A DNA stretch of 64,000 nt from Symbiodinium sp. CCMP2592 (Eukaryota; Sar; Dinophyceae; Suessiales; Symbiodiniaceae), in contig CAJNDT010001009.1 of NCBI GenBank assembly GCA_905221615.1, positions 1-64,000 on the forward strand, written 5' to 3'. Positions within the stretch are counted from its first letter, which is position 1. Each line of letters opens with the position of its first letter. This document shows, piece by piece, positions 10,751 through 24,518 of this stretch. The position numbers and the translations under genes are program-made. The notes beneath the pieces are model-generated. The model was given only the letters and a program-made list of their open reading frames with translations, searched no databases and had not been told where the DNA came from.

Positions 10751-10911
10751 CACTTACGAAGCTACCGGTCCTCGAGCGAAAATAGCCTACAGCATCCGAC
10801 GATGTAAATCAGCACACATGGCGGAACGTCTACATATCAATATGTGTACTCTGCATGCATCGCTCCCCTGCAGTGATTCTTCGTTCTCACCAACGACTCT
10901 TGATGCTACCT

Positions 10912-10970
10912 CCCCAAACCCTAAACCCTAAACCCCAAACCCCAAACCCTAAACCCTAAACCCTAAACCC
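10912..10970. repeat. CCCTAAA block at the 3' side of the copia insertion
   Basis: About eight CCCTAAA/CCCCAAA units end in AACCC directly against the LTR. The same kind of sequence resumes after the other LTR, so the element inserted into telomere-like repeats. Confidence 0.85.
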
Positions 10971-11122
10971 TATAGAATACACCAAAACCGTTAAGCCATG
11001 AGCGGTCAACCTAACCTTTTACTCAGAGGGCTTGGGCACAATAGTCAGCGGTATATAGTACACAACATGATGACTGTACACGACCATACAAACTCCTACG
11101 CAAGCTGCGATGCAAAACTACA
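10971..11122 (-). repeat. 3' LTR
   Basis: Identical to 24187-24338. In element sense it begins TGTAGTTTTG and ends GTATTCTATA, so the TG start is kept but the canonical CA end is not. A TATATA tract lies inside and could serve transcription. Confidence 0.92.
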
Positions 11123-11133
11123 CCCCCCTCACC
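11123..11133 (-). promoter_or_regulatory. Polypurine tract
   Basis: In element sense the sequence GGTGAGGGGGG directly precedes TGTAG of the 3' LTR. This is the expected place and composition of the plus-strand primer. It fixes the LTR boundary. The 315 nt between ORF3 and this tract hold no further ORF that I can support. Confidence 0.85.
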
Positions 11134-11448
11134 TAAAGGCACGGTCACTGCATTCAAAAACACAGCATACCTTCGCCTGCAGGTGGAAGAGCGCTTCGGC
11201 TCGGAGTTCGACGATCGGCGTGGAGTTGCCTCCCGCGTCATCAGTTGTATCAGCAAAAGTACATGTGACTATCGTGTGCCTCGAGGAAGGGTGCGAAAAC
11301 TGCATACGAGCTTTTCTTCAAATGCAATACGCTGGTTTCAGCGTGGAGCAAGGACGATAGGAGTTCGCCGCACAGCCACTTGAAAAAATATCACAGGCCG
11401 GGTGAACATCCCTCTTGCTCGAAAGAATCAGACTACTGGGTCGGCTTA

Positions 11449-12654
11449 TCAGTACCAACGCCATCCGCGATTGTGCCACTCACGCCAGTCCTGGTTGTCC
11501 CAGTTCTGGCCGCGCCATGATCCCCAGGATGACGAAGACCAATTCTGCCACCAGGATTGATCATCCCAGTCCCAGTCGCGGTTGGTGCGATCGGCGGCCT
11601 CGGCGTTAGCCGGGCGTTTGCCTTTTCCCTTCTCTGCTGCTCGGGCATACGTAGAGCCCTTGCCACCACCTGGCGGATGCTGCTGGGCATACTTCGGCTG
11701 GGCAGCACGACTTTGATTGGCCTTTTTGATGGTTTCATCAACCGTCTCCACCATGAAGGGTAGGTCCTTTGCCAAAACGGTCTGTAGGTCCACACCCACT
11801 GCAGCGGGATCGTAGTTGAGAAGATCCACCTTGCCGTGGCCAAAAGTCTGTAGACGGATGCCCCCCTTTTGCCTGGCGATGTTGTGAGCGAAATCTTGGA
11901 ACGAAAGGATGGCTCCGTACCAAGTAAATGCTACTGGCGTATCCTCCGGCGTGGACGTTAGTCCCGCTGCGCACAACTTGCCGCCAATGCCATCGTCTCC
12001 GGTAAAGAAAACGATACGACACTCTGGAACCTCGTCCGTGCGGATCTGGTGCGTGGTACTCGCCGCTCTGGAGGATCCAATAGCCAGCATGCGTTGCGAT
12101 CGAGTGCGGCCAGGGTTCGGAAGGTAGGCGAAGCAGAGGCAGTCGAGGGCACGAATCGTTCTGCGTGTATATCCCTCTTTGGCCATTGAAATTGCGTATT
12201 CATTGTTATGATTGAACCTCGCTACGCAATCAGTGTAGCCCTTTTTCACGGCTCTCTGCTTTGCCACTTTGGCTTTCCGAATAACTTCGCCTTCTAAGGA
12301 GTTCATGCCACGGCCGGCGACATCTTTCGATGCGCTTTGAAGGCTTGGCCTCACTCCCACTCGTTCAGCGGCATCACCCATCTCCTGAAGCAGAGCTTCG
12401 CGCCCACGTGCCAACAGCGTCCGTCTGCCCTGTGCCTTCAATTGACCTGGTCGAACTGGCCCTCCGCATTGAGAGCAAATCCTTTGGCCTTGAAGACACT
12501 CAGCTTTGCAGTGGTAGCATTTGATCTTCTCCAAAAACGCGGCGGATGGCTTGGTCTCACTACCAGCATAAAGTACTGGTTCTGGCCTTCCCACCGGCTC
12601 CTGGATTGCTTCAACTGGTGTACCCTCAGCATCCAGCGTCACCGTTGTCGCCAT
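11449..12654 (-). CDS. ORF3: zinc-ribbon, Trp-rich C-terminal protein (401 aa)
   Basis: The ATG at 12654-12652 overlaps the last 16 nt of ORF2 in the -1 frame. The frame is open for only about 50 nt further upstream, so restart after ORF2 termination or a second frameshift are both possible; I saw no canonical slippery heptamer. Near the N-terminus a zinc ribbon reads CYHCKAECLQGQRICSQC. The middle is globular and unrecognised. The last 40 residues are a Trp/Asp/Ser/Arg-rich tail (WDWDDQSWWQNW...) ending WRWY. One copy of the GCC...AGGC hairpin family lies at 11597-11615. An RNA-binding or packaging role is a guess from composition and position. Confidence 0.75.
   Translation of the reverse strand: MATTVTLDAEGTPVEAIQEPVGRPEPVLYAGSETKPSAAFLEKIKCYHCKAECLQGQRICSQCGGPVRPGQLKAQGRRTLLARGREALLQEMGDAAERVGVRPSLQSASKDVAGRGMNSLEGEVIRKAKVAKQRAVKKGYTDCVARFNHNNEYAISMAKEGYTRRTIRALDCLCFAYLPNPGRTRSQRMLAIGSSRAASTTHQIRTDEVPECRIVFFTGDDGIGGKLCAAGLTSTPEDTPVAFTWYGAILSFQDFAHNIARQKGGIRLQTFGHGKVDLLNYDPAAVGVDLQTVLAKDLPFMVETVDETIKKANQSRAAQPKYAQQHPPGGGKGSTYARAAEKGKGKRPANAEAADRTNRDWDWDDQSWWQNWSSSSWGSWRGQNWDNQDWREWHNRGWRWY
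11597..11615 (-). other. Hairpin family copy 1 (in ORF3)
   Basis: RNA sense GCC-CGGC-UAAC-GCCG-A-GGC, followed by CG. UAAC is a UMAC-type loop. It lies in the basic linker before the Trp-rich tail. Confidence 0.75.
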
Positions 12655-15600
12655 TCCGTCACCGATGTACACGTCCTGATTGGAGGACCCGGCTGTGCAA
12701 TGATGGTGCCTGGTTCAACAAGCGGCCTCTCCTCTACGGAGGGCATTTGCTCATCATCAGGGGCTTCATCGTCGTCAGCCTTTGCAGGGGCATCAGTGAT
12801 AGCCAACGATCCCTCAAGCACATCAGCAACATCTGGAATGGGCGGCAGGGATGTTTCCTCAGCTGGAAGGGTACCATGTTCTTCATCAATAGGCGGTGCG
12901 AAATTGTCCTGAGTCGTCTCCTCGGGCTCGGGTTCATCAAGAACGATATCGATGCCGGCCTCAGCGTTAGCTGGGCTTTCTCCCTGCTCTTCGTCAGGAG
13001 GTACAGCACCACCTGCACGGGACCAGAGTACGACATCGCGTTGAGTATCGTTGATGAACAGGATTGTTGATCCGGGCACTGCTTCGGAACACAATATGCC
13101 ATCAGATTCCGTAACGAATAGATCGCAAGCAGCTTCGAGGACCTCCCGAGTGTCAAAGACGATCTCGATTGGTGAGCTCGCACGGAGTCCTGAACGTGCC
13201 TTCTGCTCCTCGAGCGGCAGCGGCGCAAAGTAGCAATGCGCCTTCTCAGAACCCCCAAAACCCGGCAACAAACGATCTTCCAGAATCGCATACGCCGCAT
13301 CATGTGTTGTGCGGTGATAGAGCCTGGGCGGCGCCTTGTCAATCGGGATCAACGGCCTGCCCTCTCGGGCGGCATTAGCCAGCTCCTCAGAACGCTGCAG
13401 CGTAAGATATGCCTTTGCAATAGAGGCATTGTCAAGCTGCAGATTGCTGGAGTGGCCTTGCGTACACCCGACGTAGACCGGAAAAGCCGGTTGCCCAATT
13501 GCATCGGCAGCACTGTCCATTGGTCCGCGAAACATAAGGCGCTGTTTGTTGTCGGTAGCGATCATGTCGAGGAGGCTTCCTAGACCAATGTTGTTTCCAG
13601 GTCTGCATCGATTAGCAACCTCAAGCACTTCCATGGCCAATACCCATGGCCCGTTCCACGATCGCAGTTTAAATTGATTACCCTTGTTTTCGAAGTTTCC
13701 TCTGATGAGTCCAGTGACGAATGTAACCATTTTGTGATCACATCTCGGGTAGTGTAGGCCTGGCGTCATGTCTTTTTGGAACACTTCGATGTACTGGTCG
13801 GCCTCCTCTTGCGAGGGGCATTCGTTCCAGTAATCATACAGGGTAATGCCAGTCATCTCGGCGAAGTCATAGGTGTCGTTCATGAACCTCATTCCGCGCG
13901 ATCCCTGCACTGCGAGCTTGGTCAATCGCTGCTTGTCGGCCTCAGCCTTTGCAAGGCGAGCTCTTTTTGCAGCGTGCTCGGTGCCAGAGTCGCCAGACAG
14001 AATGCCTCCACCATAAATGGATGCGTCGATCGGCATCGGTCGAATATCGCCAGAAGACGAAGCTGCAGTACTCGCCGGGGTAACGGCCTCCACCTTAGGT
14101 GGGGCTTTGTTCCATTCCGGCGAATTGATCTCCTCTTCTGTTGCGAAAACACCGGGTGCGACGCTGATGACATTCTGAATCTTCATCTCCTTGAGGAAGT
14201 CGGGGACCTCAGGCGCAGGCAGTTCGGCGTGACTTTCGTCACGCTTCTCCTCCCAGTATGCGTCGTCCCACGGATCCTCCTCCGTTGGCTCCGCCTTGAC
14301 CTGCTTGCTTCTCGTCATCCTCGCAAGAGCCGCTTGCAGGACATGGTTATCGACTGCGTAGCGACCACGGGAATCAAAATAATTGTCAGCAAGCAGTGAT
14401 TGAAAGGCGGCTTCGCCCATTTTCGCTATCGCTCTGGAGGCATAGCGCTCGGCGATCTCGATCTGCATGATGTGGGCTAAACCCGAAACCATCTTGCGGC
14501 GGGATTCACTGTCCTCGCGGAAATGGACGTTGTCGTTATAGAGCGCCAAATCTCCAAGGAAGGGGTGGATGTCACAGGCGGCGAGTCCTCTACGGACCGC
14601 TTCGTCCTTGAATCGCGCAATGCATTCATCGAACTGCTTTGGCAACCCGTAGACGAAGCTGCGAACTCCTGTGCAGATCACAATGGACCCCACGTATGGA
14701 GAACGGCGCTGCAGGTCTGCTAGCGCTTCAAGATTTTGGCAAACTCTCCGACAGATCTTTTGCCAATCTCCGCGTGCCTCTATGGGCGATTGATGGTCCC
14801 ACCACGTCGGGACGCCGGGGCTGCAAAATATCCCGTATCTGCCGACGATCTCATTCGCCATCCAGACAATCTGCACGTCCACCAGCAACTCTTGGTCGCC
14901 AGAGTAGCGCAGAGCCGTCTGGTCACAGAGGATCTGAGCCCTCTCCCGAAGTTCGGACAATGTTTTGCCCCACAGGGGTTCGTAAATTATCTCCCTGTAC
15001 TGCAGATAGACCCCCGAGCTCGCTGCCTTCAAATCCGAGGAAAGGTCTGTCCTTGTTCTCTTGCCAGCAACGAAAACAGTCGTAGAGTCGGAGAGGAGGA
15101 TGAGCACCCGCTTTCGGCCTCGATTTTCATCGGGCTTTAGCTGCGACATGCCAGACTGCGTCAATGCTGCCACTCGGTTGAGCCCTGGATATCGATCCGT
15201 TTCAAAGCAGTTGTGAGCAGCCACTTGCACCGGCATGTACTGAAAAAGTGCTCGCAACTCTCCTTCGTCAATCGACTCTTGGAAGCCTATCGACTCGTGA
15301 CTGATGACGGCCGCCCAAAGCTGGCGGCCCCAAAAATCGGCCAACTGCTCTTCGTAGGTCGCCATCGCTCTTCTACTCTCAGCTGCTACCACGGGACTAG
15401 GACCCGGCCTCAGCGTTAGCTGGACTTTAGTTGTACAGTAAAGCGATGACAAAGCTGCGCATGCCAATCCTTCATGTACCTTAGATCCATCATTATCCTT
15501 AGTGGTATGCACTTGCCAATCAGCATGCAATGCCGAAACCTTGGTTTTCGATGTCCTTAGTCGTCCACAGTCCTGGGTAGCTTCGAGCAGCAGCCGCTTC

Positions 15601-18600
15601 AATCGAAAAGACGATGCAAAGATCAGCGACCCACTCTTGTGTTTCTCAAGACCGAAATCGTGTGCCAACTTAACAACAGCAGGCAAACACCACATCTCGT
15701 TGTTAGCTGAAGCTTCCAACAGCAGGTGGGGCCTAAGACGTTTGGTTAGTCGGCATAACGACATCAACGATTTCAGACATTTGTTCCATTCGTGGTCCGG
15801 CAGCGATGCAAAGTAGAGAATCGGTTTAGTGCTTCCCCCCTCGTCGCAGAGGGCACGAAGATTGTTAGCGATTTTTGACATTGCTTTCGGATTCATAGTT
15901 TCAAGATTGTTCGGGACAGGGACAACACGACAGGAACCATTTCCTGACAAGGTGGTTTCACTAGCGTTCCCAAAGTCAAGCAAAACCCTGCAAAAGTCCA
16001 TCGGCCTCGGCGCGAGCCGGGCGTCTGCAGGAGCGGCCGCCGCAGACCCGAGCCTAAAGCCGTGTTTGTTGAGGGTTTCAAGGTCAGTTGTGGAAAGCTT
16101 GGGAAAACCACGAGAGGTATACGCGGTGATAGAAAAACGTTTTCCGGTATAAGGTAACACGCAGTGTTTCTTGGCTGGGTCAAAGACAAGAGGTTTGCAA
16201 TGGGTGTCATGCACATCCCCCTTAATGGAACGTCCTTGAGCGTCTTTCTGGAACTGCGCCTTAGTATCCGAAACAGTCTGATCTTCAACCCACAATCCAC
16301 CTCCTTTGTGGTCACCAAAGCTAACCATCAGGTTCTTAGAACCCTTTAAGTTATGGGAATCAGCATGAACTTTTGCCATGTTGTCCTTGCTAATCACCAC
16401 TGAAGTCCATGTGAAACCTGAGTCGGGAGAATGAGCTTTCACGAACTCATTCAAGTACCTGGCAACTGCGGGATACCTAGTGGTGCTTCTGGTAACACCT
16501 TGCATTCCACCGTGTGTCCAAGTTCCGTACACTTGATAATAGCCTTGTTTCTTTGATGCAATGCGAGGTCGCTTGGATTTCTTAGCTGTATGATTTGATG
16601 CAATCTCTTCACACAACCTTTCCAAAGCATCACAGCCATACTCCTTCAGGCGGGAAAGTTCTGAAGCAACCATCTCAACCTCCTGAATGGCAGCAGCTGC
16701 TTTAGCACGTTTGCCTTGAACCTCGTGTGGTGTAGGAGAGCGGCCTGGCTTTTCAGCCGGCTTCGCATTCTGCGCATCAGGTACATGGTTGATGAGCCTA
16801 AGCGCGTGTTCCCACTTACCACGTTCAGCAAACGGCTTTGTGAAGATGTCTGCGACCTGTTCTTTGGTATCAACATTAATCATGTTGAAATGGCCCTTTT
16901 CGAACTGTTGCTTCATCCATGCAAACGAAAGTCGTTGTGTCCTATCGGTGTGACGAAGCTTTTCACTGTCACCTTTCGCGATGATGGTGATAGTAGCTTG
17001 ATTATCTTCTAAGAACTGAACCTGAAACTTTTCAGAAAGATGAACATCCAAGCCATTTATATCCGCGACAGAGCGTCCTTCATGACTGAGTTCACCATAC
17101 CTGATTTCATCAAGCTCCGGGTCAATCCTTGCAACGATTGTTTCCGTGACTTTAGGTGATTCCGCCGGCGGCCTGGTCTTTCGACCGGCTGCATTAGCGG
17201 TAACCTCTCCCCAAAGGTAACACCACAAGCTTAAGCTAGGCAGGCCTTGTGCTCTGATGCCGTGATTCGCTGAAACTACTTCACTTTCGGTGCTAGACGT
17301 CGTGATGCTGGTCTGTTTCTTTGAAAAGGCGTTCAACGGATAGTAAGTGTTGGGTCCAACCAAGAACAGTGCGCATCCTGATGTGGATTTGGAATCAAAT
17401 TCTCCTGCCCAATCAGCGTCACAGAAGAGCCACAACTTACAGTCCGAAATCTTATCGCCAATGAAACCCTGCATCGTGATGTCCAAGCTCGAATTAATGT
17501 AGCAGATCAGCCGATGTAAACCGACATCGCAGTCCCTTGACCACTTCGTGACCCTAGAAGCAAGCGACTGGGTACACCGAAGTAAGTCCCACCTTGCCAT
17601 TCTTGCTGCAAACAACACCTTCATGAGGACCCGACTGGCAATCGGTTGCAACCTCCCCTGGGGTTCGTTGCCTTCCACAGGTTTGGCTACTCTGTTCTCA
17701 TGAAACGGCGTAGCTGCAAACTTCAGGGAATCACGTGAAACTTTAGCTAATTCACAGTACTTGTCGACACAGGAGACCAGGAAGTCCTTCATGTCATACG
17801 TCACAACGTTGACAGGCTTAGTCATAGCGGGGACGGGTTCCTTGATGATCGTATCAGTGCTCTTGAATCTAGACTGCTTAGCTTCGCGCTTAGCGTCTGA
17901 TTTGCTTCTCATCGGCCTGCCCTTTCGGGCGGCAGCAGCGAGCTTAAAGTCGTCTGCCGTCGTCGGCATGATAGAGAAGATTGTTTTGCCCGTCCACCAC
18001 TCGTTTCGCCTAGCAGGGCCCCCCTGATTGGAATCGTCCTGTATCTGATCTCCGTTCTCAAACTCTGTTATGCGTTCAGTTCCCAGAGTGGGAAACTGTC
18101 TCATGTCGTCTTCACTTGGTACGTACAAACGCTTTCTGGGGTACCTGTGATGTCTGATTGCAAGCGCAGCATCCGGATCAACCTCCCAATAATCTTCTGT
18201 TCTACTCGGCCTGGAGTTTCCTCCGGCTGCTGGTGCTGCAATTTTCTTGTCGAAGACGTAAGCAAAAGGATGTGCGCTACGGTCAAGCATAACACCGTTC
18301 TGCTCTCGATGATTGCAACCAAAGTATCTCCCAAATGGTTCCGAAGGATCCATATCCAAAACCTTCCCAATCCCCTCCCAACCCTTAGCAAGATTGTCCT
18401 TTGGTCCTGCCATTTTGAAATCGTCGACGTAGACGACGAGGAGGAGATCTAATTCCGGATGATAAAAGATACTTTGCCATATATCTGGAAGAACCGGGAT
18501 CCACCCTATGCTCTTCAACTGAGCAGTGCAGTGTCGTTCCCAGATGCCGCCGCTGTCAGGATGTCCATACAAAGCGAGTCTGAGAGGACAAACTGGGTCG

Positions 18601-20975
18601 CGAAAGTTGCGCCACTCGGGCGGTCGACGATTCTTGGGAAGTCGAACCCAAGTCGCAATCCCTTTAAACAAAGCTTGAGTATACGCTTGTCGAGCATCAG
18701 CTTGCTGTTTTGCATAGCCTGGTTGGCTTCCGAACACATCGATGATTTTACCCGCTTCCATACTTGCAGGGCTAGAACCCAGTTCGGCGAAGATCGCGTG
18801 ATCCGCATTTTCATCTCGAACCTGGTTCCCCTGGAACACAGAGCGTCCCTTGTAGTACTTAAGCGGATTACCATCCTGCAACTCGGAACCCTTAAGGCTG
18901 CAAATTTCGAACACGTTCCCGAAGTGAGCCTTTTCGCCTTTTGCCTTGGTTTCAGACAAGACGTCATCGTACTCACGAACCTGTTTCTCAAGCCAACACC
19001 CTTTATCAAGAAGTTTCTTCCATTCTTTGTCCATAGCAGCCTGAGCCTCAGGGTTTCTGGCAACATCGTTCTGATTGATAAGCTTGGCAACCGCAGCGAA
19101 AAGATCCTCGCAAGTTTCCTCTAGCTTATCCAGAAATAAACCGTGCAACCTCTTCCCATCCTCAGGCGTCCTCGGTCGATGAGGTTCTCGATGTCCAAGG
19201 AGAACAGGCATAGCGGGAGCTTCTTTCTCTCGTTCTTCTTTTAACCTAGCTTCCTCCCGCGCAACCTTCTTCTCCCATCGTTCGATTTCCTCTTTTCGTT
19301 GTTGTGCGGAATACATGTGCCAGAATTCAGACGGGACATCAGGAGGTCTTTTGGAGCCTTTCTTGTTCCTCACAAGTCTAACCCCATCCCAATTGTAACC
19401 AGCAGGAACCGGTCTACCATCAGGATATTTCGTGGGATCAAACAGATCACCTTTGGAACTAGATGATGGCTCACTGGGCTTAGGCGCGGCCTCACCTTTC
19501 GGTGGGCTTTGATCGTCATCGGGTTCGGGTTCGGATAAGCCGATTTCATCAAGAAGTTCGCCTGCCTCACGAAGTCCCCGTTCCTTTTCTTCATCTGAAG
19601 CATGAATGTTCTGATCATCCAACAGTGGAACCTCGTGTGCCTCGCGATCCTTGATCCTTCCCGATTGAAGTGGGAACTCAAAACTTCCCTCAATCAACTC
19701 AACGCGCTTAGCCCTGATGACCTTGAGGTTTCCGTCCTCAATGGCAAACTGTGCGTCTTTCACGGGTGCAATCAAATACTCCTTCTTCCAAACAAACCCT
19801 GGTTGGATATGGTATCCCAGGAAGATCCCTTCAACCCCAGTTGACGAAAACTTGGAAGTCTCCGGAACATTCTGTTTAGGGTTATGCCAATACAAGACCT
19901 TAGCTCCGAAAGGAACAATCAATCCCGCAAAGGACTCCCCAAAGCGTGCCTCCCATGGGATTTCACCAGTATCCACTCGTTTTGTGAGATTGAGCGCAAT
20001 GGAGTGGTGCTGAGCTGCTAAAGGCCAAAACCGTTCTGGAAGACCGGCTTGCTCCAAGTTCGAGCGCGTACCCTCTAGTACGGTGCGGATTTCCCGTTCG
20101 ATGACGGCCTTAGTTTCATCCACGTACTCTCTAGAGGTGTTGTGCCTACATCGGAGTTCCTTCACAGCTGCTCCCAACTCCGGCGCGTTGTCAGAGTAGA
20201 TAACCCCAACTTCGTCTTGCGTACCGAAAAAGTGCAGAAGGTCCTCATGCACTTGTTCCGATGATTTTGTTGCGCTAGGATACACATACCTGAATTGCGA
20301 AAACACATCTTTGATAACAAGCGCCACCCTCTCATCCTGAAATCCAAAGTCCCTCAGATCTCTTGTCACGAGATGATCAATGGTAACATGATCCCCATAC
20401 TTTTCACTGTGTATGGTCGAAGATCCCCCCTTTCTTCGAGCTTGGGGAGATAGCATCTTCGCCTTTTGGCACACTTTGCAGAATGGGTTCTTAGGACGAT
20501 GGCAGAATTGATGATGGATGCTTTCGGCCTCGGCGCGAAGCCGGGCTTCTTGCGAGATTTCCCTTCCCTCATCTTCTTCCTTGTCACTATCGGGCTCGAT
20601 TAAGGGGTCGTCTTCGGGTCTTTTGAAAGCAGTAATCGACAGAATTGGCGATCCATCAATCTTTTGATTTTTAACCCTTAGACTTCTGATGTCAACAGAA
20701 TCCTCAATCTTGCTCCAAGCAGAGTCCTTGTAGATCCAAGTGGTCCTTAGCACGAACCTTGGATGACGAGGTGCAGGTACTCGCAAAGCCTTTGGCCGAT
20801 GACCAATAATGATCTTTGATGCGGCAATTTCACTGCTAGTGATCCAACCTGGCTTGGCTAAATCTTTAGGCTTGATTGCAATTGGTGGTGCGGCATTGAT
20901 TGCTTCTTCTATCTCGGAGTCGCTGTGGACGACTCTTTCATCCCCGGCCGGTCCTCTCGGACGGCTTTCTACTGG
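12639..20975 (-). CDS. ORF2: copia Pol polyprotein with four extra domains
   Basis: Open from 21011 to TGA 12641-12639. Translation should enter at 20975 after -1 slippage on GGGTTTC; there is no ATG near the N-terminus. Residues are counted from the TTG at 20786 (2,715 aa). Integrase: HHCC finger 91-106 (HHQFCHRPKNPFCKVC), catalytic D137, D199, E230. RVT_2 reverse transcriptase about 586-835 with D697 and VYVDD (D788-D789). RNase H about 1000-1330 with FCDADW, SSTESE and EDNQA. After these copia-standard parts come a 2OG-Fe(II)-dioxygenase-like domain 1416-1560 (H1474, D1476, distal H1541, R1550); a degenerate methyltransferase-like region 1596-1740; an SGNH-hydrolase-like domain 1890-2110 (SDS at 1899-1901, N1978, DxxH 2085-2088); and a Tpt1/KptA-like domain 2435-2590 (QGHS 2443-2446, LYH 2489-2491, AH 2516-2517). 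An acidic tail ends it. Standard Pol domains are certain; accessory identities rest on motif recognition. Confidence 0.93.
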   Translation of the reverse strand, partial: PVESRPRGPAGDERVVHSDSEIEEAINAAPPIAIKPKDLAKPGWITSSEIAASKIIIGHRPKALRVPAPRHPRFVLRTTWIYKDSAWSKIEDSVDIRSLRVKNQKIDGSPILSITAFKRPEDDPLIEPDSDKEEDEGREISQEARLRAEAESIHHQFCHRPKNPFCKVCQKAKMLSPQARRKGGSSTIHSEKYGDHVTIDHLVTRDLRDFGFQDERVALVIKDVFSQFRYVYPSATKSSEQVHEDLLHFFGTQDEVGVIYSDNAPELGAAVKELRCRHNTSREYVDETKAVIEREIRTVLEGTRSNLEQAGLPERFWPLAAQHHSIALNLTKRVDTGEIPWEARFGESFAGLIVPFGAKVLYWHNPKQNVPETSKFSSTGVEGIFLGYHIQPGFVWKKEYLIAPVKDAQFAIEDGNLKVIRAKRVELIEGSFEFPLQSGRIKDREAHEVPLLDDQNIHASDEEKERGLREAGELLDEIGLSEPEPDDDQSPPKGEAAPKPSEPSSSSKGDLFDPTKYPDGRPVPAGYNWDGVRLVRNKKGSKRPPDVPSEFWHMYSAQQRKEEIERWEKKVAREEARLKEEREKEAPAMPVLLGHREPHRPRTPEDGKRLHGLFLDKLEETCEDLFAAVAKLINQNDVARNPEAQAAMDKEWKKLLDKGCWLEKQVREYDDVLSETKAKGEKAHFGNVFEICSLKGSELQDGNPLKYYKGRSVFQGNQVRDENADHAIFAELGSSPASMEAGKIIDVFGSQPGYAKQQADARQAYTQALFKGIATWVRLPKNRRPPEWRNFRDPVCPLRLALYGHPDSGGIWERHCTAQLKSIGWIPVLPDIWQSIFYHPELDLLLVVYVDDFKMAGPKDNLAKGWEGIGKVLDMDPSEPFGRYFGCNHREQNGVMLDRSAHPFAYVFDKKIAAPAAGGNSRPSRTEDYWEVDPDAALAIRHHRYPRKRLYVPSEDDMRQFPTLGTERITEFENGDQIQDDSNQGGPARRNEWWTGKTIFSIMPTTADDFKLAAAARKGRPMRSKSDAKREAKQSRFKSTDTIIKEPVPAMTKPVNVVTYDMKDFLVSCVDKYCELAKVSRDSLKFAATPFHENRVAKPVEGNEPQGRLQPIASRVLMKVLFAARMARWDLLRCTQSLASRVTKWSRDCDVGLHRLICYINSSLDITMQGFIGDKISDCKLWLFCDADWAGEFDSKSTSGCALFLVGPNTYYPLNAFSKKQTSITTSSTESEVVSANHGIRAQGLPSLSLWCYLWGEVTANAAGRKTRPPAESPKVTETIVARIDPELDEIRYGELSHEGRSVADINGLDVHLSEKFQVQFLEDNQATITIIAKGDSEKLRHTDRTQRLSFAWMKQQFEKGHFNMINVDTKEQVADIFTKPFAERGKWEHALRLINHVPDAQNAKPAEKPGRSPTPHEVQGKRAKAAAAIQEVEMVASELSRLKEYGCDALERLCEEIASNHTAKKSKRPRIASKKQGYYQVYGTWTHGGMQGVTRSTTRYPAVARYLNEFVKAHSPDSGFTWTSVVISKDNMAKVHADSHNLKGSKNLMVSFGDHKGGGLWVEDQTVSDTKAQFQKDAQGRSIKGDVHDTHCKPLVFDPAKKHCVLPYTGKRFSITAYTSRGFPKLSTTDLETLNKHGFRLGSAAAAPADARLAPRPMDFCRVLLDFGNASETTLSGNGSCRVVPVPNNLETMNPKAMSKIANNLRALCDEGGSTKPILYFASLPDHEWNKCLKSLMSLCRLTKRLRPHLLLEASANNEMWCLPAVVKLAHDFGLEKHKSGSLIFASSFRLKRLLLEATQDCGRLRTSKTKVSALHADWQVHTTKDNDGSKVHEGLACAALSSLYCTTKVQLTLRPGPSPVVAAESRRAMATYEEQLADFWGRQLWAAVISHESIGFQESIDEGELRALFQYMPVQVAAHNCFETDRYPGLNRVAALTQSGMSQLKPDENRGRKRVLILLSDSTTVFVAGKRTRTDLSSDLKAASSGVYLQYREIIYEPLWGKTLSELRERAQILCDQTALRYSGDQELLVDVQIVWMANEIVGRYGIFCSPGVPTWWDHQSPIEARGDWQKICRRVCQNLEALADLQRRSPYVGSIVICTGVRSFVYGLPKQFDECIARFKDEAVRRGLAACDIHPFLGDLALYNDNVHFREDSESRRKMVSGLAHIMQIEIAERYASRAIAKMGEAAFQSLLADNYFDSRGRYAVDNHVLQAALARMTRSKQVKAEPTEEDPWDDAYWEEKRDESHAELPAPEVPDFLKEMKIQNVISVAPGVFATEEEINSPEWNKAPPKVEAVTPASTAASSSGDIRPMPIDASIYGGGILSGDSGTEHAAKRARLAKAEADKQRLTKLAVQGSRGMRFMNDTYDFAEMTGITLYDYWNECPSQEEADQYIEVFQKDMTPGLHYPRCDHKMVTFVTGLIRGNFENKGNQFKLRSWNGPWVLAMEVLEVANRCRPGNNIGLGSLLDMIATDNKQRLMFRGPMDSAADAIGQPAFPVYVGCTQGHSSNLQLDNASIAKAYLTLQRSEELANAAREGRPLIPIDKAPPRLYHRTTHDAAYAILEDRLLPGFGGSEKAHCYFAPLPLEEQKARSGLRASSPIEIVFDTREVLEAACDLFVTESDGILCSEAVPGSTILFINDTQRDVVLWSRAGGAVPPDEEQGESPANAEAGIDIVLDEPEPEETTQDNFAPPIDEEHGTLPAEETSLPPIPDVADVLEGSLAITDAPAKADDDEAPDDEQMPSVEERPLVEPGTIIAQPGPPIRTCTSVTEWRQR
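12725..12744 (-). other. Hairpin family copy 2 (ORF2 tail)
   Basis: RNA sense GCC-CUCC-GUAGA-GGAG-A-GGC, followed by CG. It has a five-base loop and sits in the acidic C-terminal tail. Confidence 0.75.
12958..12976 (-). other. Hairpin family copy 3 (ORF2 tail)
   Basis: RNA sense GCC-CAGC-UAAC-GCUG-A-GGC, followed by CG. Nearly identical to copy 8. It follows the Tpt1-like domain. Confidence 0.78.
13355..13373 (-). other. Hairpin family copy 4 (within Tpt1-like domain)
   Basis: RNA sense GCC-GCCC-GAGA-GGGC-A-GGC, followed by CG. It encodes AAREGRP between the QGHS and LYH motifs, where family members vary in length. Confidence 0.8.
13801..13819 (-). other. Hairpin family copy 5
   Basis: RNA sense GCC-CCUC-GCAA-GAGG-A-GGC, followed by CG. 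GNRA loop. Confidence 0.78.
14086..14105 (-). other. Hairpin family copy 6
   Basis: RNA sense GCC-CCACC-UAA-GGUGG-A-GGC, followed by CG. Five stem pairs with a three-base loop, or four pairs with a five-base loop. It lies in the linker after the SGNH-like domain. Confidence 0.72.
15117..15135 (-). other. Hairpin family copy 7
   Basis: RNA sense GCC-CGAU-GAAA-AUCG-A-GGC, followed by CG. It lies just before the SGNH-like block I. Confidence 0.8.
15407..15425 (-). other. Hairpin family copy 8
   Basis: RNA sense GUC-CAGC-UAAC-GCUG-A-GGC, followed by CG. One outer pair is a G-U wobble. It lies between the methyltransferase-like and SGNH-like regions. Confidence 0.75.
16004..16022 (-). other. Hairpin family copy 9
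   Basis: RNA sense GCC-CGGC-UCGC-GCCG-A-GGC, followed by CG. It follows the dioxygenase-like domain. Confidence 0.75.
16743..16761 (-). other. Hairpin family copy 10
   Basis: RNA sense GCC-GGCU-GAAA-AGCC-A-GGC, followed by CG. It lies between RNase H and the dioxygenase-like domain. Confidence 0.8.
17171..17189 (-). other. Hairpin family copy 11
   Basis: RNA sense GCC-GGUC-GAAA-GACC-A-GGC, followed by CG. It lies in a loop within the RNase H region. Confidence 0.8.
17915..17933 (-). other. Hairpin family copy 12
   Basis: RNA sense GCC-GCCC-GAAA-GGGC-A-GGC, followed by CG. It lies between RT and RNase H. Same stem as copy 4. Confidence 0.8.
18209..18227 (-). other. Hairpin family copy 13
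   Basis: RNA sense GCC-GGAG-GAAA-CUCC-A-GGC, followed by CG. It lies just after the RT core. Confidence 0.8.
19489..19507 (-). other. Hairpin family copy 14
   Basis: RNA sense GCC-CACC-GAAA-GGUG-A-GGC, followed by CG. It lies in the linker between integrase and RT. Confidence 0.8.
20527..20546 (-). other. Hairpin family copy 15
   Basis: RNA sense GCC-CGGC-UUCGC-GCCG-A-GGC, followed by CG. It lies immediately upstream of the integrase zinc finger. Confidence 0.75.
20947..20965 (-). other. Hairpin family copy 16 (frameshift stimulator position)
   Basis: RNA sense GCC-GUCC-GAGA-GGAC-C-GGC, followed by CG. It is the only copy with a bulged C instead of A, and it sits 9 nt downstream of the slippery heptamer. 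Confidence 0.82.
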
Positions 20976-20981
20976 AAACCC
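20947..20981 (-). promoter_or_regulatory. -1 ribosomal frameshift signal
   Basis: In the ORF1 frame the sequence is TCG GGT TTC CAG TAG. G GGT TTC fits the canonical X XXY YYZ slippery heptamer (20981-20975), one codon before the stop. ORF2 is in the -1 frame and overlaps ORF1 by 43 nt around this point. After a 9-nt spacer comes a 7-bp hairpin with a bulged C and a GAGA tetraloop (20965-20947), a suitable stimulator. The mechanism is known from retroviruses and luteoviruses; its use here is inferred from an exact match of heptamer, frame, spacer and structure. Confidence 0.88.
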
Positions 20982-23900
20982 GAAGACTCGTCCTCCGCAG
21001 GTGCCGCCAGTTCAACCTTGACTGTACCGGCGTTAAACACCTGAGTTCCAGCAGATTTCTGGGAATCATCAGCACTTGCTGGGCTCGCTACCGAGTCATC
21101 ATTTGAGATCACTGGGACTCTACCCTTCATCTTACACTTGATGACTTTACCATCGGGAGCTATGAAGTATGGAACCTTGCCCGCAGGCCAATGGAAATCA
21201 TATCCATCGTCCATGCATCTTCTCCCAACAGAACAAACCGGTGGCGTGCTTTCCAGTAGATAGCACTCAATGTTTTGCTTCAGTTCAGGCATCGGGATGT
21301 TGGTTGACTTGATTCCCTGAACTGGACCATTAGCTGTAATCAAGTTGACCGGCCTACTAGCGTTTTCGATGGGAGCCTCTGGATAGTAGATAGAGTGATC
21401 GTGCCTACTGATCAGATCTTCTTCACTGCCAGTATCGGCGAGGAATTCTAATCCCGCATTAAAGCTAGAGCATGCTGTTCTTTCCACGCTAGAACACAGC
21501 TCACACTTCAACACTGCAACTGGGATCTCACCCTCTTCGCAGTCATCTGTGCACTCGTACTCACAGTGGCTTTCAATCCCATTGAGCATACAGGACATGA
21601 TCCTGGCAAGCTCGTTCGCTGTTCTTATGGCCGTGCTTAGGTCCTGAACTGGAGGCTTTGGGCAGCTTTCAGCATCCAAGTAACAAACTTCGAAAGTTCG
21701 CGGTTTGGTCCTATGCTTCTTACCCTTACCATCCAATGGAATCTCCCGAATGCTTGGCTTCTCCTTGAACCTTAGTTTCTTGAACGTTCCTGAAGCATCA
21801 CCCTTAACGCCTTGCCCATTGGGCACAGCTGCCAGCGCATACGAAATGCAACAAGCTGCCGTGCGTCCGCCAGACTTTTCCTTGCTCTTGGACCTGCCCC
21901 TGTGTTTCTTTTCCTTCTTTGCTTTAGGATCCGGGGTCGGGCTCCTAGGCTTTTCATCGTTCTTCGCAGGGGCGGCCTGCTCGGTAGGAGCGGCGTCAGT
22001 TGGATTGGGCTTATCTTGATGCAGGAACCTACAGTCTTTGCCTTTGTTGCACTTGCCTTTCTTCCAAAAGGTGCAAATCGCGTTGATCTTCTTCTGAGGC
22101 GTTCGATGAGGACTTGGGGATCTTGACTTTGGTTTGTGGAGAAACTTACACTTGTCGCCTCTTGTGCATTTTCCTTTCTGGAAGTCGTAACAAACCTGTT
22201 GTGTTTTGGGACTCTGAGATCTAGGCGGTGTTCGTTGGCTCGATCCTTTGCTGCTTGTTCTGGATTTTGAGCTACTTCGGGACATGCTTCTTCCACGGCC
22301 TCCTCGTGAAGAGGGGCGACGTTCAGATCCGTACGCTGGGGCTCCGTATCTATCGCCATGCGACTTAGCGATGCGATCACGATTCTTGCGCATACGCTCT
22401 CTAGTCAGATGCTCCCTAATGGCATTGACGAGGAATTCATACGTGTGTACGGGGTTTCCTTCCTTTGCCCTGTCGTACAGCTGAAGATCGTACTTGATGT
22501 GGTGGGATTTCCGAATTTCCCTCAGCAAAATGTCCCTCAAGGTAACTTCATCCGGAACATGACTCATTCCAGCAATCACCGACTCGAAGTTGTAAAGGAA
22601 GGTAGCCAAGTCGTCCCCAACCAACTTCACTTTTAAAAGGTCTTCTACGCTATAGAGGCTTCCGACTTCTTCATTAGTCTTAAAGTGTTGATGAAACATC
22701 CACAATACTTGTCTTCCCCTGACGGCACGTCCTCCTGTGGCCTCTGTTTCCTTGAAGTTTAGGACTTGCCTTGAAATCTCTCCTCTAGCGACTCTGGTAA
22801 GTGCAGCCAACAACTTCGTGTCCAATGTTAAGAATTTCCCAGTGTCATGTAAGGACTTGAGGGTAGCCTCTTTATCATATACTTCCTGCACCCAGCGAAA
22901 TGCCTCATCCGGGCGATCGCTCGCAGCCCGCACAATCTCGCGGACCGAGATCCGCCACGATCGGTAGGTCTCTGGATTAGGGTAATCGGGAAGCTTGATG
23001 CTTTCGGCTTCTTTCACCTTTGGTTTGCCCTCTTCATCTTCGGTCTTAGGGGTAAGCAAGCGTGCTGCCCTAATCAATGCCTCAGCTCCGAAATCAACAT
23101 GTGGAACCCCGTCTGGATCAACAGTCGCCGGCTTACCCGTTTGGGCAGCTTTAGGAGACTTTTCCTTTTGTGGCTCTCTGTTCTCAAACCCAGGTGGTAC
23201 AGAAGTTCCTTGCGGAGGTTCCTGAGCTTGCGGCGTTCTTCCGAAGATGTCCTTCATGTTCTCGGGAATCTCAAATGGATTGGAGAACGGGACAGTAGGA
23301 TTAGGTCCTGGCTTCGGCGTGGCATATTGTCTGCCCGCTTCGTCCGCATTGGCTTCCATTCTTAGGGCTCGTTCTGCGGCAGCCAGTTCATCCTGCAGTC
23401 TGTCGTTTTGTGCACTCATTTCAGCGATTTCAGTAATGAAACGCCGTTCCATACTCGCTTCGGTTTCTTCAAGAACTTGTTTGAATCGGATTCCAAGAAA
23501 ATCAAGGTGTTGTGCTTTGTTGCGTTCGCTCTCAGCAATCAGAGTAGTTCTGAGCTTAGCGATTTCCGACTGATGTCGTTGTTGGAAAATTGATTCCAGA
23601 ATGTTCATTTCATTCCTGCATGTTGCAACTTCGTTCAACAAAAACTTTTCCCTTTGGGATGCGTTGAACTCAAATTCCGCAAACTGTGCTTCGCATTCTG
23701 CCATCTTCACCTCATGAAGGCGCTCGGCCTGTTCAGCCATGCCAGCCATTCTCACAAGATTATCATGCGATTGTTGGTTCAGAATGCTTGCGTGTCTTCT
23801 TTCAGCATCTGCCTCCGTTCGCTCTATTGCCATTCTTTGTTGTTCGGCTGTTTCACCCTGGTTCACAACATTGTACAAGGTATACTGCACGTTTGAGATG

Positions 23901-24121
23901 TCGACCGTTGGATTTGAGACAAATGGAGATAGGGTAGGACCCACTGGACCGAAGATCCTATCAAGTGCTTGGGATCCTGAGCTCGGTGCCATAGGGCCCG
24001 CGCCAGCTGCTGTAAGTTGTTCATCAAGCAGTCGATCTCTTGTTTCGTCGTCCATCTCGTCCGATGATACTTCGGTTGTTTCTCCCTTCTCAGTAGTGAG
24101 CAGAGAGGGCGAAGTACTCAT
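20969..24121 (-). CDS. ORF1: Gag-protease with two CCCH zinc fingers (1,050 aa)
   Basis: The first ATG in frame is at 24121 (MSTSPSLLTTEKGE), 65 nt after the 5' LTR. A long coiled-coil-like Gln/Glu/Arg-rich region (about 23950-23350) precedes a Gag-like core (about 23000-22400, LPDYPNPETYRSW...). A basic Arg/Ser tract follows. Two CCCH fingers of C-x7-C-x5-C-x3-H type are at about 22198-22140 and 22076-22021, where most Gags carry CCHC knuckles. A retropepsin motif FLADTGSEEDLISR is at about 21444-21404. The stop TAG (20971-20969) lies one codon after the slippery heptamer, so most ribosomes make ORF1 alone and a fraction make ORF1-ORF2. Hairpin copies are at 21976-21995 and 22298-22317. Confidence 0.9.
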   Translation of the reverse strand: MSTSPSLLTTEKGETTEVSSDEMDDETRDRLLDEQLTAAGAGPMAPSSGSQALDRIFGPVGPTLSPFVSNPTVDISNVQYTLYNVVNQGETAEQQRMAIERTEADAERRHASILNQQSHDNLVRMAGMAEQAERLHEVKMAECEAQFAEFEFNASQREKFLLNEVATCRNEMNILESIFQQRHQSEIAKLRTTLIAESERNKAQHLDFLGIRFKQVLEETEASMERRFITEIAEMSAQNDRLQDELAAAERALRMEANADEAGRQYATPKPGPNPTVPFSNPFEIPENMKDIFGRTPQAQEPPQGTSVPPGFENREPQKEKSPKAAQTGKPATVDPDGVPHVDFGAEALIRAARLLTPKTEDEEGKPKVKEAESIKLPDYPNPETYRSWRISVREIVRAASDRPDEAFRWVQEVYDKEATLKSLHDTGKFLTLDTKLLAALTRVARGEISRQVLNFKETEATGGRAVRGRQVLWMFHQHFKTNEEVGSLYSVEDLLKVKLVGDDLATFLYNFESVIAGMSHVPDEVTLRDILLREIRKSHHIKYDLQLYDRAKEGNPVHTYEFLVNAIREHLTRERMRKNRDRIAKSHGDRYGAPAYGSERRPSSRGGRGRSMSRSSSKSRTSSKGSSQRTPPRSQSPKTQQVCYDFQKGKCTRGDKCKFLHKPKSRSPSPHRTPQKKINAICTFWKKGKCNKGKDCRFLHQDKPNPTDAAPTEQAAPAKNDEKPRSPTPDPKAKKEKKHRGRSKSKEKSGGRTAACCISYALAAVPNGQGVKGDASGTFKKLRFKEKPSIREIPLDGKGKKHRTKPRTFEVCYLDAESCPKPPVQDLSTAIRTANELARIMSCMLNGIESHCEYECTDDCEEGEIPVAVLKCELCSSVERTACSSFNAGLEFLADTGSEEDLISRHDHSIYYPEAPIENASRPVNLITANGPVQGIKSTNIPMPELKQNIECYLLESTPPVCSVGRRCMDDGYDFHWPAGKVPYFIAPDGKVIKCKMKGRVPVISNDDSVASPASADDSQKSAGTQVFNAGTVKVELAAPAEDESSGFQ
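21976..21995 (-). other. Hairpin family copy 17 (in ORF1)
   Basis: RNA sense GCC-GCUC-CUACC-GAGC-A-GGC, followed by CG. Five-base loop. It lies just after the second CCCH finger. Confidence 0.75.
22298..22317 (-). other. Hairpin family copy 18 (in ORF1)
   Basis: RNA sense GCC-CCUC-UUCAC-GAGG-A-GGC, followed by CG. Same stem as copy 5. It lies in the Arg/Ser-rich tract before the CCCH fingers. Confidence 0.75.
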
Positions 24122-24168
24122 GTACCAGTGTGAATACCAGTGTAAGAATACCACGGAGACAAAGTCAG

Positions 24169-24186
24169 CGAATACGGCTGATAACC
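24169..24186 (-). promoter_or_regulatory. Primer-binding-site position
   Basis: GGTTATCAGCCGTATTCG directly follows the 5' LTR in element sense, where the primer tRNA should anneal. The first six bases match the complement of the initiator-tRNA anticodon region used by Drosophila copia, but the match then fails. The primer is not identified. Confidence 0.4.
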
Positions 24187-24338
24187 TATAGAATACACCA
24201 AAACCGTTAAGCCATGAGCGGTCAACCTAACCTTTTACTCAGAGGGCTTGGGCACAATAGTCAGCGGTATATAGTACACAACATGATGACTGTACACGAC
24301 CATACAAACTCCTACGCAAGCTGCGATGCAAAACTACA
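24187..24338 (-). repeat. 5' LTR
   Basis: Identical to 10971-11122 over 152 bp. AACCC follows at 24339-24343, as it precedes the other LTR. Confidence 0.92.
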
Positions 24339-24426
24339 AACCCCAAACCCCAAACCCCAAACCCTAAACCCTAAACCCTAAACCCCAAACCCTAAACCCC
24401 AAACCCTTAACCCTAAACCCCAGACC
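24339..24426. repeat. CCCTAAA/CCCCAAA block beyond the 5' LTR
   Basis: About ten telomere-type units continue the array interrupted by the copia element. Confidence 0.85.
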
Positions 24427-24518
24427 CGTGAACTTCTGAATCCGCAGCTTCCGGGGAGCGGTCTCTACACACCTCGGGCCCTCCTTGAGAACCTGAGCCA
24501 CTGGATAAGCTAAACGTC

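Follow-up and report, generated by a model that had tools for sequence, protein, structure and literature searches.

The genomic RNA of a copia-like long terminal repeat (LTR) retrotransposon from the dinoflagellate Symbiodinium sp. CCMP2592 carries an array of about 27 small hairpins. The element lies on the minus strand of the window analysed here, a 64-kb stretch comprising positions 1 to 64,000 of contig CAJNDT010001009.1 (GenBank assembly GCA_905221615.1), and contains three open reading frames (ORFs), of which ORF1 is Gag-like and ORF2 encodes Pol. The array is a selected nucleic-acid structure and not a peptide feature or a product of chance. What could such an array do for the element? 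We propose, with a probability of roughly one half, that the hairpins are dispersed, family-specific recognition signals through which the element's own protein would package the genomic RNA.

A strict pattern (GCC, 4 nt, a loop of 3-8 nt, 4 complementary nt, A, GGC) was applied to both strands of the window and matched 16 times. All 16 matches lie on the minus strand within 11597-22317 and are followed by CG, and no match was found on the antisense strand of the element or on either strand of the remaining window. A first-pass annotation had listed 18 copies of the hairpin. At each of these 18 coordinates, a hairpin is present on the minus (coding) strand, is directly followed by CG and forms when folded in isolation (-7.9 to -12.8 kcal/mol; 20947 in a slightly different register). 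The assertion that all of them fit GCC-stem-A-GGC is accurate for 16, as the site at 15407 starts with GTC (a U-G pair) and the site at 20947 has a bulged C. The other descriptive claims were borne out: the stems, said to be of at least 11 kinds and all pairing, comprise 13 different 4-nt sequences among the 18 sites, the loops are GAAA (6), GAGA (2), GCAA (1), UAAC (3) or others (6), and all three codon phases are represented among the ORF2 hairpins. The count of 18 was incomplete in that its pattern missed nine candidates with another third pair or bulge, which start at 23315, 23129, 21436, 18785, 14579, 14225, 12315, 11947 and 11216; the weakest are 18785 (R2 E=0.6) and 21436 (E=0.11).

Covariance model R1 was built from 13 tetraloop sites, which match by construction. 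At E<=0.03, R1 yields 23 sites, every one on the sense strand of the element, and 10 of the 23 are independent of model building; its best match outside the element has E=0.37. The new sites display a GCG/CGC or GCT/AGC third pair and a bulged A or U, or are bulge-free. A general pattern (GC-N-N4-loop-N4'-bulge of 0-2-N'-GC-CG) detects 26 sense sites in the element versus four elsewhere, one of the four being on the element's antisense strand. The site at 15405 raises the total to 27, two of which are weak. The hairpins are as follows (coordinates include the 3' CG).

23315..23338, minus strand: hairpin, 7-nt loop, GCG/CGC foot; relaxed pattern
23129..23149, minus strand: hairpin, AAAC loop, GCT/AGC foot; covariance model R1
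22296..22317, minus strand: hairpin, 5-nt loop; strict pattern, folds alone
21973..21994, minus strand: hairpin, 5-nt loop; strict pattern, folds alone
21436..21457, minus strand: possible hairpin, 2-nt bulge, weak; relaxed pattern
20945..20965, minus strand: hairpin, GAGA loop, bulged C; folds alone, slightly different register
20525..20546, minus strand: hairpin, 5-nt loop; strict pattern, folds alone, genomic copies
19487..19507, minus strand: hairpin, GAAA loop; strict pattern, folds alone, genomic copies
18785..18806, minus strand: possible hairpin, 2-nt bulge, weak; relaxed pattern
18207..18227, minus strand: hairpin, GAAA loop; strict pattern, folds alone, genomic copies
17913..17933, minus strand: hairpin, GAAA loop; strict pattern, alignment column shared with L060:1968
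17169..17189, minus strand: hairpin, GAAA loop; strict pattern, alignment column shared with L060:2703
16741..16761, minus strand: hairpin, GAAA loop; strict pattern, folds alone, genomic copies
16002..16022, minus strand: hairpin, UCGC loop; strict pattern, folds alone, genomic copies
15405..15425, minus strand: hairpin, UAAC loop, GTC start; folds alone, T of GTC private to the window among compared copies
15115..15135, minus strand: hairpin, GAAA loop; strict pattern, alignment column shared with L060:4376
14579..14600, minus strand: hairpin, GUAGA loop, bulged U, GCG/CGC foot; relaxed pattern, genomic copies
14225..14244, minus strand: hairpin, GAAA loop, no bulge, GCG/CGC foot; covariance model R1, genomic copies
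14084..14105, minus strand: hairpin, 5-nt loop, fold has a UAA triloop on five inner pairs; strict pattern
13799..13819, minus strand: hairpin, GCAA loop; strict pattern, alignment column shared with L060:5569 in a ragged stretch
13353..13373, minus strand: hairpin, GAGA loop; strict pattern, folds alone, genomic copies
12956..12976, minus strand: hairpin, UAAC loop; strict pattern, folds alone, genomic copies
12723..12744, minus strand: hairpin, GUAGA loop; strict pattern, folds alone, genomic copies
12315..12335, minus strand: hairpin, GAAA loop, bulged U, GCG/CGC foot; covariance model R1, genomic copies
11947..11967, minus strand: hairpin, UAAC loop, GCG/CGC foot; covariance model R1, genomic copies
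11595..11615, minus strand: hairpin, UAAC loop; strict pattern, folds alone, genomic copies
11216..11236, minus strand: hairpin, GCAA loop, GCG/CGC foot, located past the ORF3 stop and before the 3' LTR; covariance model R1, genomic copies

The strict density is not reproduced in shuffled coding sequence (mean 0.35 versus 16 observed). Synonymous-codon shuffles (2000 per ORF) gave means of 0.02, 0.27 and 0.06 for ORF1, ORF2 and ORF3 versus 2, 13 and 1 observed, with a maximum of three strict matches in ORF2. A foot-free scan demanded only a GNRA or UNRC loop on seven pairs with a small bulge at most and left the foot and the CG unconstrained. It retrieved 16 sites on the sense strand of the element versus 0.1 in shuffles, and all 16 have the GC foot and the CG. 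On the antisense strand, the same scan found three sites, each the complement of a sense hairpin whose loop is GCAA or UCGC; within 36000-58000, it found none on the plus strand and one on the minus strand. The other large ORFs of the window are without the array in peptide scans and in a DNA scan of 36000-58000; by eye, none had been noted in the other two large elements. The latter region contains large plus-strand ORFs without hairpins, and four of them run against Pfam gave one weak match (PreAtp-grasp, E=0.01). A known Rfam family was ruled out as the identity of the hairpins: within 10900-24500, no match exceeds the gathering score, and the single match up to E=1 (12857-12921) lies off the array hairpins.

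The stems covary. In 17 ungapped hairpin rows, covariation is 0.834 versus 0.172 in shuffles. Five of the seven pairs show changes in both partners, one in a single partner and one in neither. All 119 cells are paired, a share that arises partly by construction as the rows were chosen by hairpin fit; sliding one strand by 1-3 columns leaves at most 45.4% paired. Of 500 shuffles, 78 reached the count of five both-side changes and 91 that of 13 further pair types. Because the covariation rows were found by structure, a comparison of genomic copies is the stronger test. We compared 16 other copies of the window family from the same 1.098-Gb genome, which are 91-99% identical to the window (L038 and L043 are incomplete, and small deletions affect or adjoin a hairpin in L036 and L041), out of an estimated 89 or so copies ((573-39)/6). 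Among 100 of the 573 pattern places, 92 have one of six window-element stems and eight are unpaired.

These copies reveal purifying selection on the hairpins. They differ from the window copy at 2.44% of positions outside the hairpins and at 5.81% of ORF2 third positions. Stems differ at 16 of 4725 positions, and 15 of these 16 differences come from one T at 15425 that only the window copy has; in ORF2, none of the 1295 third positions in stems differs. The bulge (0/336), the CG (1/674) and the loop (6/1415) are similarly quiet, and the 5' flank of the hairpins (22/1015) equals the background. When variable sites are counted, which avoids counting shared descent twice, third-codon positions vary at 0 of 84 sites in stems versus 744 of 2645 elsewhere in ORF2 (Fisher 2.1e-12), and the other two codon positions at 2 of 168 versus 296 of 5289. 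The copy in the 3' untranslated region (UTR) alone is too small for significance (0/14 versus 30/275 variable, p=0.38). Tetraloop changes among copies stay within GNRA or UNRC (GAAA to GAGA, GCAA to GGAA or GAGA, TAAC to TGAC), and one pentaloop changed from GTAGA to GCAGA. The five gag hairpins are retained in two copies that are 10-11% diverged there; two U-G pairs occur, and the 7-nt loop has changed. The earlier argument for selection on RNA or nucleotide structure thus finds strong support in covariation, the synonymous near-invariance of stems, the pairing allowed by the proteins of relatives and a second family. A constraint on the peptide might be considered since some hairpin peptides are common to relatives, but the hairpins occupy three codon phases, are synonymously invariant and include a noncoding copy; chance is countered by the codon-shuffle control. 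Both explanations are refuted by the synonymous-codon shuffles and the invariance of stem third positions, and we assign them practically no probability.

The copies share a loop and bulge motif, and the stem sequence varies. Tetraloops occur at 20 of the 27 sites, 12 of them GNRA and four UAAC; the other four tetraloops and the longer loops fall outside GNRA/UNAC, and one copy is bulge-free. The pentaloops GUAGA and UUCAC/UUCGC (14579, 12723, 22296 and 20525) resemble GNRA or UNRC plus one extra base. The pentaloop of lambda boxB folds like GNRA. UNAC loops have been reported as GNRA mimics (PMC5311481). Stem and loop are identical in a few copies only, such as 12956 and 15405. The array extends from gag to the 3' UTR on the sense strand only. 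Its spacing is even, with a mean gap of 465 and a coefficient of variation of 0.45 versus 0.97 for random placement, and none of 20000 random placements was as even. The 18 originally listed sites alone give a coefficient of variation of 0.56 (P=0.005).

This architecture bears on two alternative roles. First, the hairpins may act in reverse transcription or as single-stranded complementary DNA (cDNA), serving as pause or template-switch sites or as marks for an enzyme of the element. Both the sense-only orientation and the reach of the array from gag into the 3' UTR are compatible with an intermediate that is strand-specific and single-stranded. However, the preference for GNRA/UNAC, loops with a shared RNA fold, and the bulge at a fixed distance point to RNA recognition. 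This argument is not decisive, given that GNRA-type DNA hairpins can also be stable, and we regard a cDNA role as improbable. Second, ribosomes may pause at the hairpins between domains for co-translational folding, or the hairpins may stimulate frameshifting, as the first-pass annotation had suggested. Many copies lie in linkers according to that annotation, the hairpin at 20945 adjoins the ORF1/ORF2 overlap and that at 12723 adjoins the ORF2/ORF3 overlap. However, the copy at 11216 is outside any ORF and the copy at 20525 is inside a peptide block conserved in relatives. Only 2 of the 27 hairpins are near an ORF overlap, slippery sites not having been searched for, and frameshift elements do not explain about 27 evenly spaced copies with one in the 3' UTR. 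Pausing or frameshifting has a slim chance of being the role of the array.

The array is not private to one element because a related family of the same genome has its own array. P0107, a protein assigned to Symbiodinium sp. CCMP2592 at NCBI, matches the genome at 98-100% identity over residues 997-2210 in at least 21 places, and was predicted from the protein to carry ten hairpins. L060, a 9.1-kb stretch of one copy of this second family, encodes a protein that shares 53% identity with window ORF2 across residues 388-1657 and 25% beyond. L060 contains six of the ten P0107 peptides, and the remaining four fall in the part unmatched by genome copies. A frame scan of L060 returned the six plus a seventh, and each of the seven folds in the DNA; in the predicted register, they form 43 of 49 pairs versus 30.9 expected by synonymous resampling (maximum 39 in 2000). 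The predicted register was off by one pair. In the correct register, with five pairs between loop and bulge, L060 has 10 hairpins versus 0.2 in shuffled sequence. All 10 have the GC foot and a bulged A or U, their loops are GCAA, GCGA or UCGC, CG follows three of them, and one is located past the stop codon of the frame read. An initial impression that L060 has a single hairpin was an artefact of fixing the bulge at four pairs; the hairpin at L060:1968 fits both registers (bulge at four or five pairs). Four of the nine in-frame L060 hairpins share an alignment column with a window hairpin, one of them in a ragged stretch. At 15135/4376, the hairpin persists though stem, bulge place and peptide all differ between the window and L060. 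Protein sequence can thus reveal hidden RNA arrays, as part of the second family's array was first anticipated from peptides and later located in DNA.

DNA of further relatives is scarce: viral contigs yielded nothing useful, and the genome-contig collection yielded only the distant relative L001. We therefore scanned homologous proteins for peptides that could encode the motif under some codon choice. The resulting counts include near-identical rows and are not independent. The strict motif has 15 entries (14 places) in the window ORF2 peptides versus 0.85 in shuffles and 260 in 58 homologs versus 47.6 in shuffles. A general motif, which allows any bulge and a GNRA or UNRC loop, gives 440 in 117 homologs versus 28.75 in shuffles. 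Some results run counter to this: the general motif gives 0 in the window's own ORF1 and in window-clade P0010, P0012 and P0019, and only 2-3 in P0009, P0011, P0014 and P0018, although a strict foot with any loop gives 11 in P0009 and 9 in P0011. Among distinct window-clade peptides that match the fixed letters only, a set that also contains the window peptides used to define the motif, pairing is possible in 32 of 41 for phase 0 with a 4-nt loop and in 17 of 27 for phase 1. The corresponding values are 32% and 15% in a swapped-halves control and 4/22 and 0/22 in outgroup proteins, and four other classes of phase and loop point in the same direction with smaller numbers. Matching sites in relatives still allow the hairpin with other stems (SPANAEA, SPTKVEA and SPAKAEA; AAREGRP, ALREERP and ATWEGRP). 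At the protein level, the bulge type tracks the clade. Before proline in phase 0, arginine (bulge after four pairs) occurs in 30 peptides from four window-clade groups and in none from five sister groups, in which glutamate, valine and lysine predominate; two more distant groups have two and one. The idea that the array is confined to one 17-row clade was overturned, as the general motif finds such peptides in sister clades. A glutamate-proline peptide pattern (105 matches versus 40 in the control) was rejected as a misreading, most of the listed stems being unpaired.

How did the sites arise? The first-pass annotation had raised the possibility of miniature hairpins that multiply within the element, which would insert as whole units. 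A few copies do share stem and loop (12956 and 15405), AALAGRP is repeated three times each in P0016 and P0017, and at 15405 the window has residues that are absent or ambiguously aligned in P0001. However, relatives that allow no hairpin, i.e., neither bulge register, align with zero or a one-residue indel at four columns: window ORF2 and P0001 at column 2817, P0011 at 3408, P0009 and P0011 at 1482, and P0014 and P0015 at 524. At column 2523 (site 15405), the insertion question is ambiguous. All copies also have a single orientation, and their stems differ by compensatory change. Spreading as the main origin of the array is thus unsupported, and we consider it very improbable.

The combination of a free stem, a near-fixed bulge, a loop that is mostly GNRA-like and a fixed foot, evenly repeated on the packaged strand from gag to the 3' UTR, is the pattern expected from repeated protein contact. 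From this pattern, we infer recognition by a protein, Gag as its likeliest identity and packaging as its outcome. In the packaging mechanism that we propose, the copia-type genomic RNA would present about 27 hairpins, each with a GC foot, a third pair and a free 4-bp stem, mostly a GNRA-like loop and usually one unpaired base on the 3' side. A protein would read the loop shape, the bulge and the foot, and the letters of the stem would be irrelevant. The likeliest reader would be the element's own Gag or another RNA-binding protein encoded by the element. Many evenly placed sites could enable Gag to select its own long RNA from cellular RNA and to condense or assemble around the RNA. The different loop-to-bulge distance in the second family would keep co-resident elements apart.

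Packaging is the best fit among the roles proposed for the array, and several observations weigh against it. Most of the 33 gag homologs are near the shuffled background in the peptide scan, those clearly above being P0059 (4 versus 0.5), P0060 (6 versus 0.8) and a few at 3-5. L001 has no bulged hairpin in 3.6 kb. Moreover, the CCCH fingers, for which the first-pass annotation had envisaged packaging sites, are also found in relatives whose proteins have few array peptides or none (P0027, P0028, P0030 and P0043), so a CCCH finger as the sole reader is disfavoured. L001 (RGVM01000345.1) is filed under a Chitinophagia metagenome-assembled genome and encodes a retrotransposon relative with 53% identity over the matched part; judging by its sequence, the contig is probably dinoflagellate contamination.

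Finally, an identical array could serve export, stability or the control of translation just as well. A protein of the host or of the element may use the hairpins to export, stabilise, silence or translationally control the 13-kb RNA, and the structural and conservation evidence fits any repeated RNA-protein contact. The array also has a 3' UTR copy, and the 3' UTR is the usual location of stability or localisation elements. However, the different bulge distances of the two families suggest a reader that differs between elements, which is harder to square with a shared host factor, and export or stability has no obvious need for even spacing over the whole RNA. We put the probability of such a role at roughly a quarter.

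The packaging reading can be extended, tentatively and at less than even odds, to a structural address code. Giant dinoflagellate copia families may mark their own RNA with between ten and nearly thirty hairpins of like shape, and the loop-to-bulge distance (four pairs in the window family, five in the neighbour) may be a family-specific letter for their own RNA-binding protein, such that co-residents would package only themselves. The array would then predate the family split, and its sites would evolve mainly by point change in place. The address code predicts that each Gag favours its own loop-to-bulge spacing. How LTR retrotransposons choose their own RNA is unsettled, and the array is an unusually clean natural experiment, with many free-stem hairpins, synonymous stem invariance and two families with different bulge distances in one genome.

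The element that carries the array consists of the following features.

10969..24338, minus strand: LTR retrotransposon bearing the array, about 13.4 kb; terminal direct repeats
24185..24338, minus strand: 5' LTR, 154-bp direct repeat
10969..11122, minus strand: 3' LTR, 154-bp direct repeat
20972..24226, minus strand: ORF1, Gag-like with CCCH zinc fingers, stop-to-stop frame; Pfam matches
12642..21011, minus strand: ORF2, Pol with Tpt1/KptA-like domain, stop-to-stop frame; Pfam matches
11452..12714, minus strand: ORF3, stop-to-stop frame; frame scan

The two direct repeats are identical and ungapped, as expected for the LTRs of a copia-like retrotransposon. Telomere-like AAACCCT repeats flank the insertion on both sides (10881-10968 and 24339-24440), and a 5-bp duplication, AACCC, is compatible with an insertion site but indistinguishable from the flanking repeat. 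ORF1 matches zf-CCCH (E=4.7e-10) and zf_CCCH_4 (E=8.7e-11). The RVT_2 match in window ORF2 is weak (E=0.043), and PF07727 is precomputed for ORF2 relatives such as P0012 and P0014. Near its end, Pol contains a Tpt1/KptA-like RNA 2'-phosphotransferase domain (PF01885, E=5.7e-8, residues 2381-2567 counted from 20786 in 12642-20786). PF01885 is also precomputed for many Pol relatives; this odd cargo for a retrotransposon has a possible role in RNA repair. ORF2 and ORF3 are in different frames at 12642-12714 in the window copy, unlike in relatives P0001-P0005, where ORF3-type hairpin peptides share one long frame with Pol. The difference is either a frameshift in the window copy or a programmed frameshift. 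Homologs of the element proteins are mostly from ENA contigs, some from Symbiodinium. Elsewhere in the genome (G000:C58:16050-22152), element hairpins appear on the minus and then the plus strand within about 6 kb, which indicates two adjacent partial copies in opposite orientation, either a real inverted pair or an assembly artefact.

Short repeated or protein-read hairpins are known from several systems. Rickettsia palindromic elements and bacterial repetitive extragenic palindromic sequences are short palindromes repeated within or between genes, and are inserted units of related sequence. In contrast, the window array is one-stranded, has free stem sequences (13 different 4-nt stems among 18 sites, where a shared copy sequence would be expected) and shows no insertion footprint at the four columns examined. 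The short loops of lambda boxB and the histone stem-loop are read by protein at single sites, whereas the window hairpins form an array. Among the open-licence PMC articles listed, titles and abstract openings report no such array for dinoflagellate or Symbiodinium retrotransposons or for dispersed or GNRA packaging signals. Ty1 and Ty3 are likewise LTR retrotransposons, and their genomic RNA is packaged by Gag. A Ty1/Ty3 review describes their cis-acting packaging sequences and structures as not clearly defined and expects multiple scattered sites; its main text contains neither "hairpin" nor "packaging signal" (PMC4974528). The nearest known pattern is the packaging signal of phage MS2, which is described as recognised by a bulged A plus a loop motif and as having many dispersed relatives, and dispersed packaging signals are also named there for the pregenomic RNA of hepatitis B virus (PMC6281560). 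Compared with MS2, the window array looks more uniform, sits in a retrotransposon, has its bulge on the 3' side instead of the 5' side and uses mostly GNRA or UNRC loops. The likeness to MS2-type dispersed signals lies in the many short stem-loops along the packaged strand and in a shared loop and bulge recognition motif (PMC6281560). Like such signals, the window array consists of multiple sense-only stem-loops, combines a shared loop and bulge with a variable stem and is under selection independent of coding.

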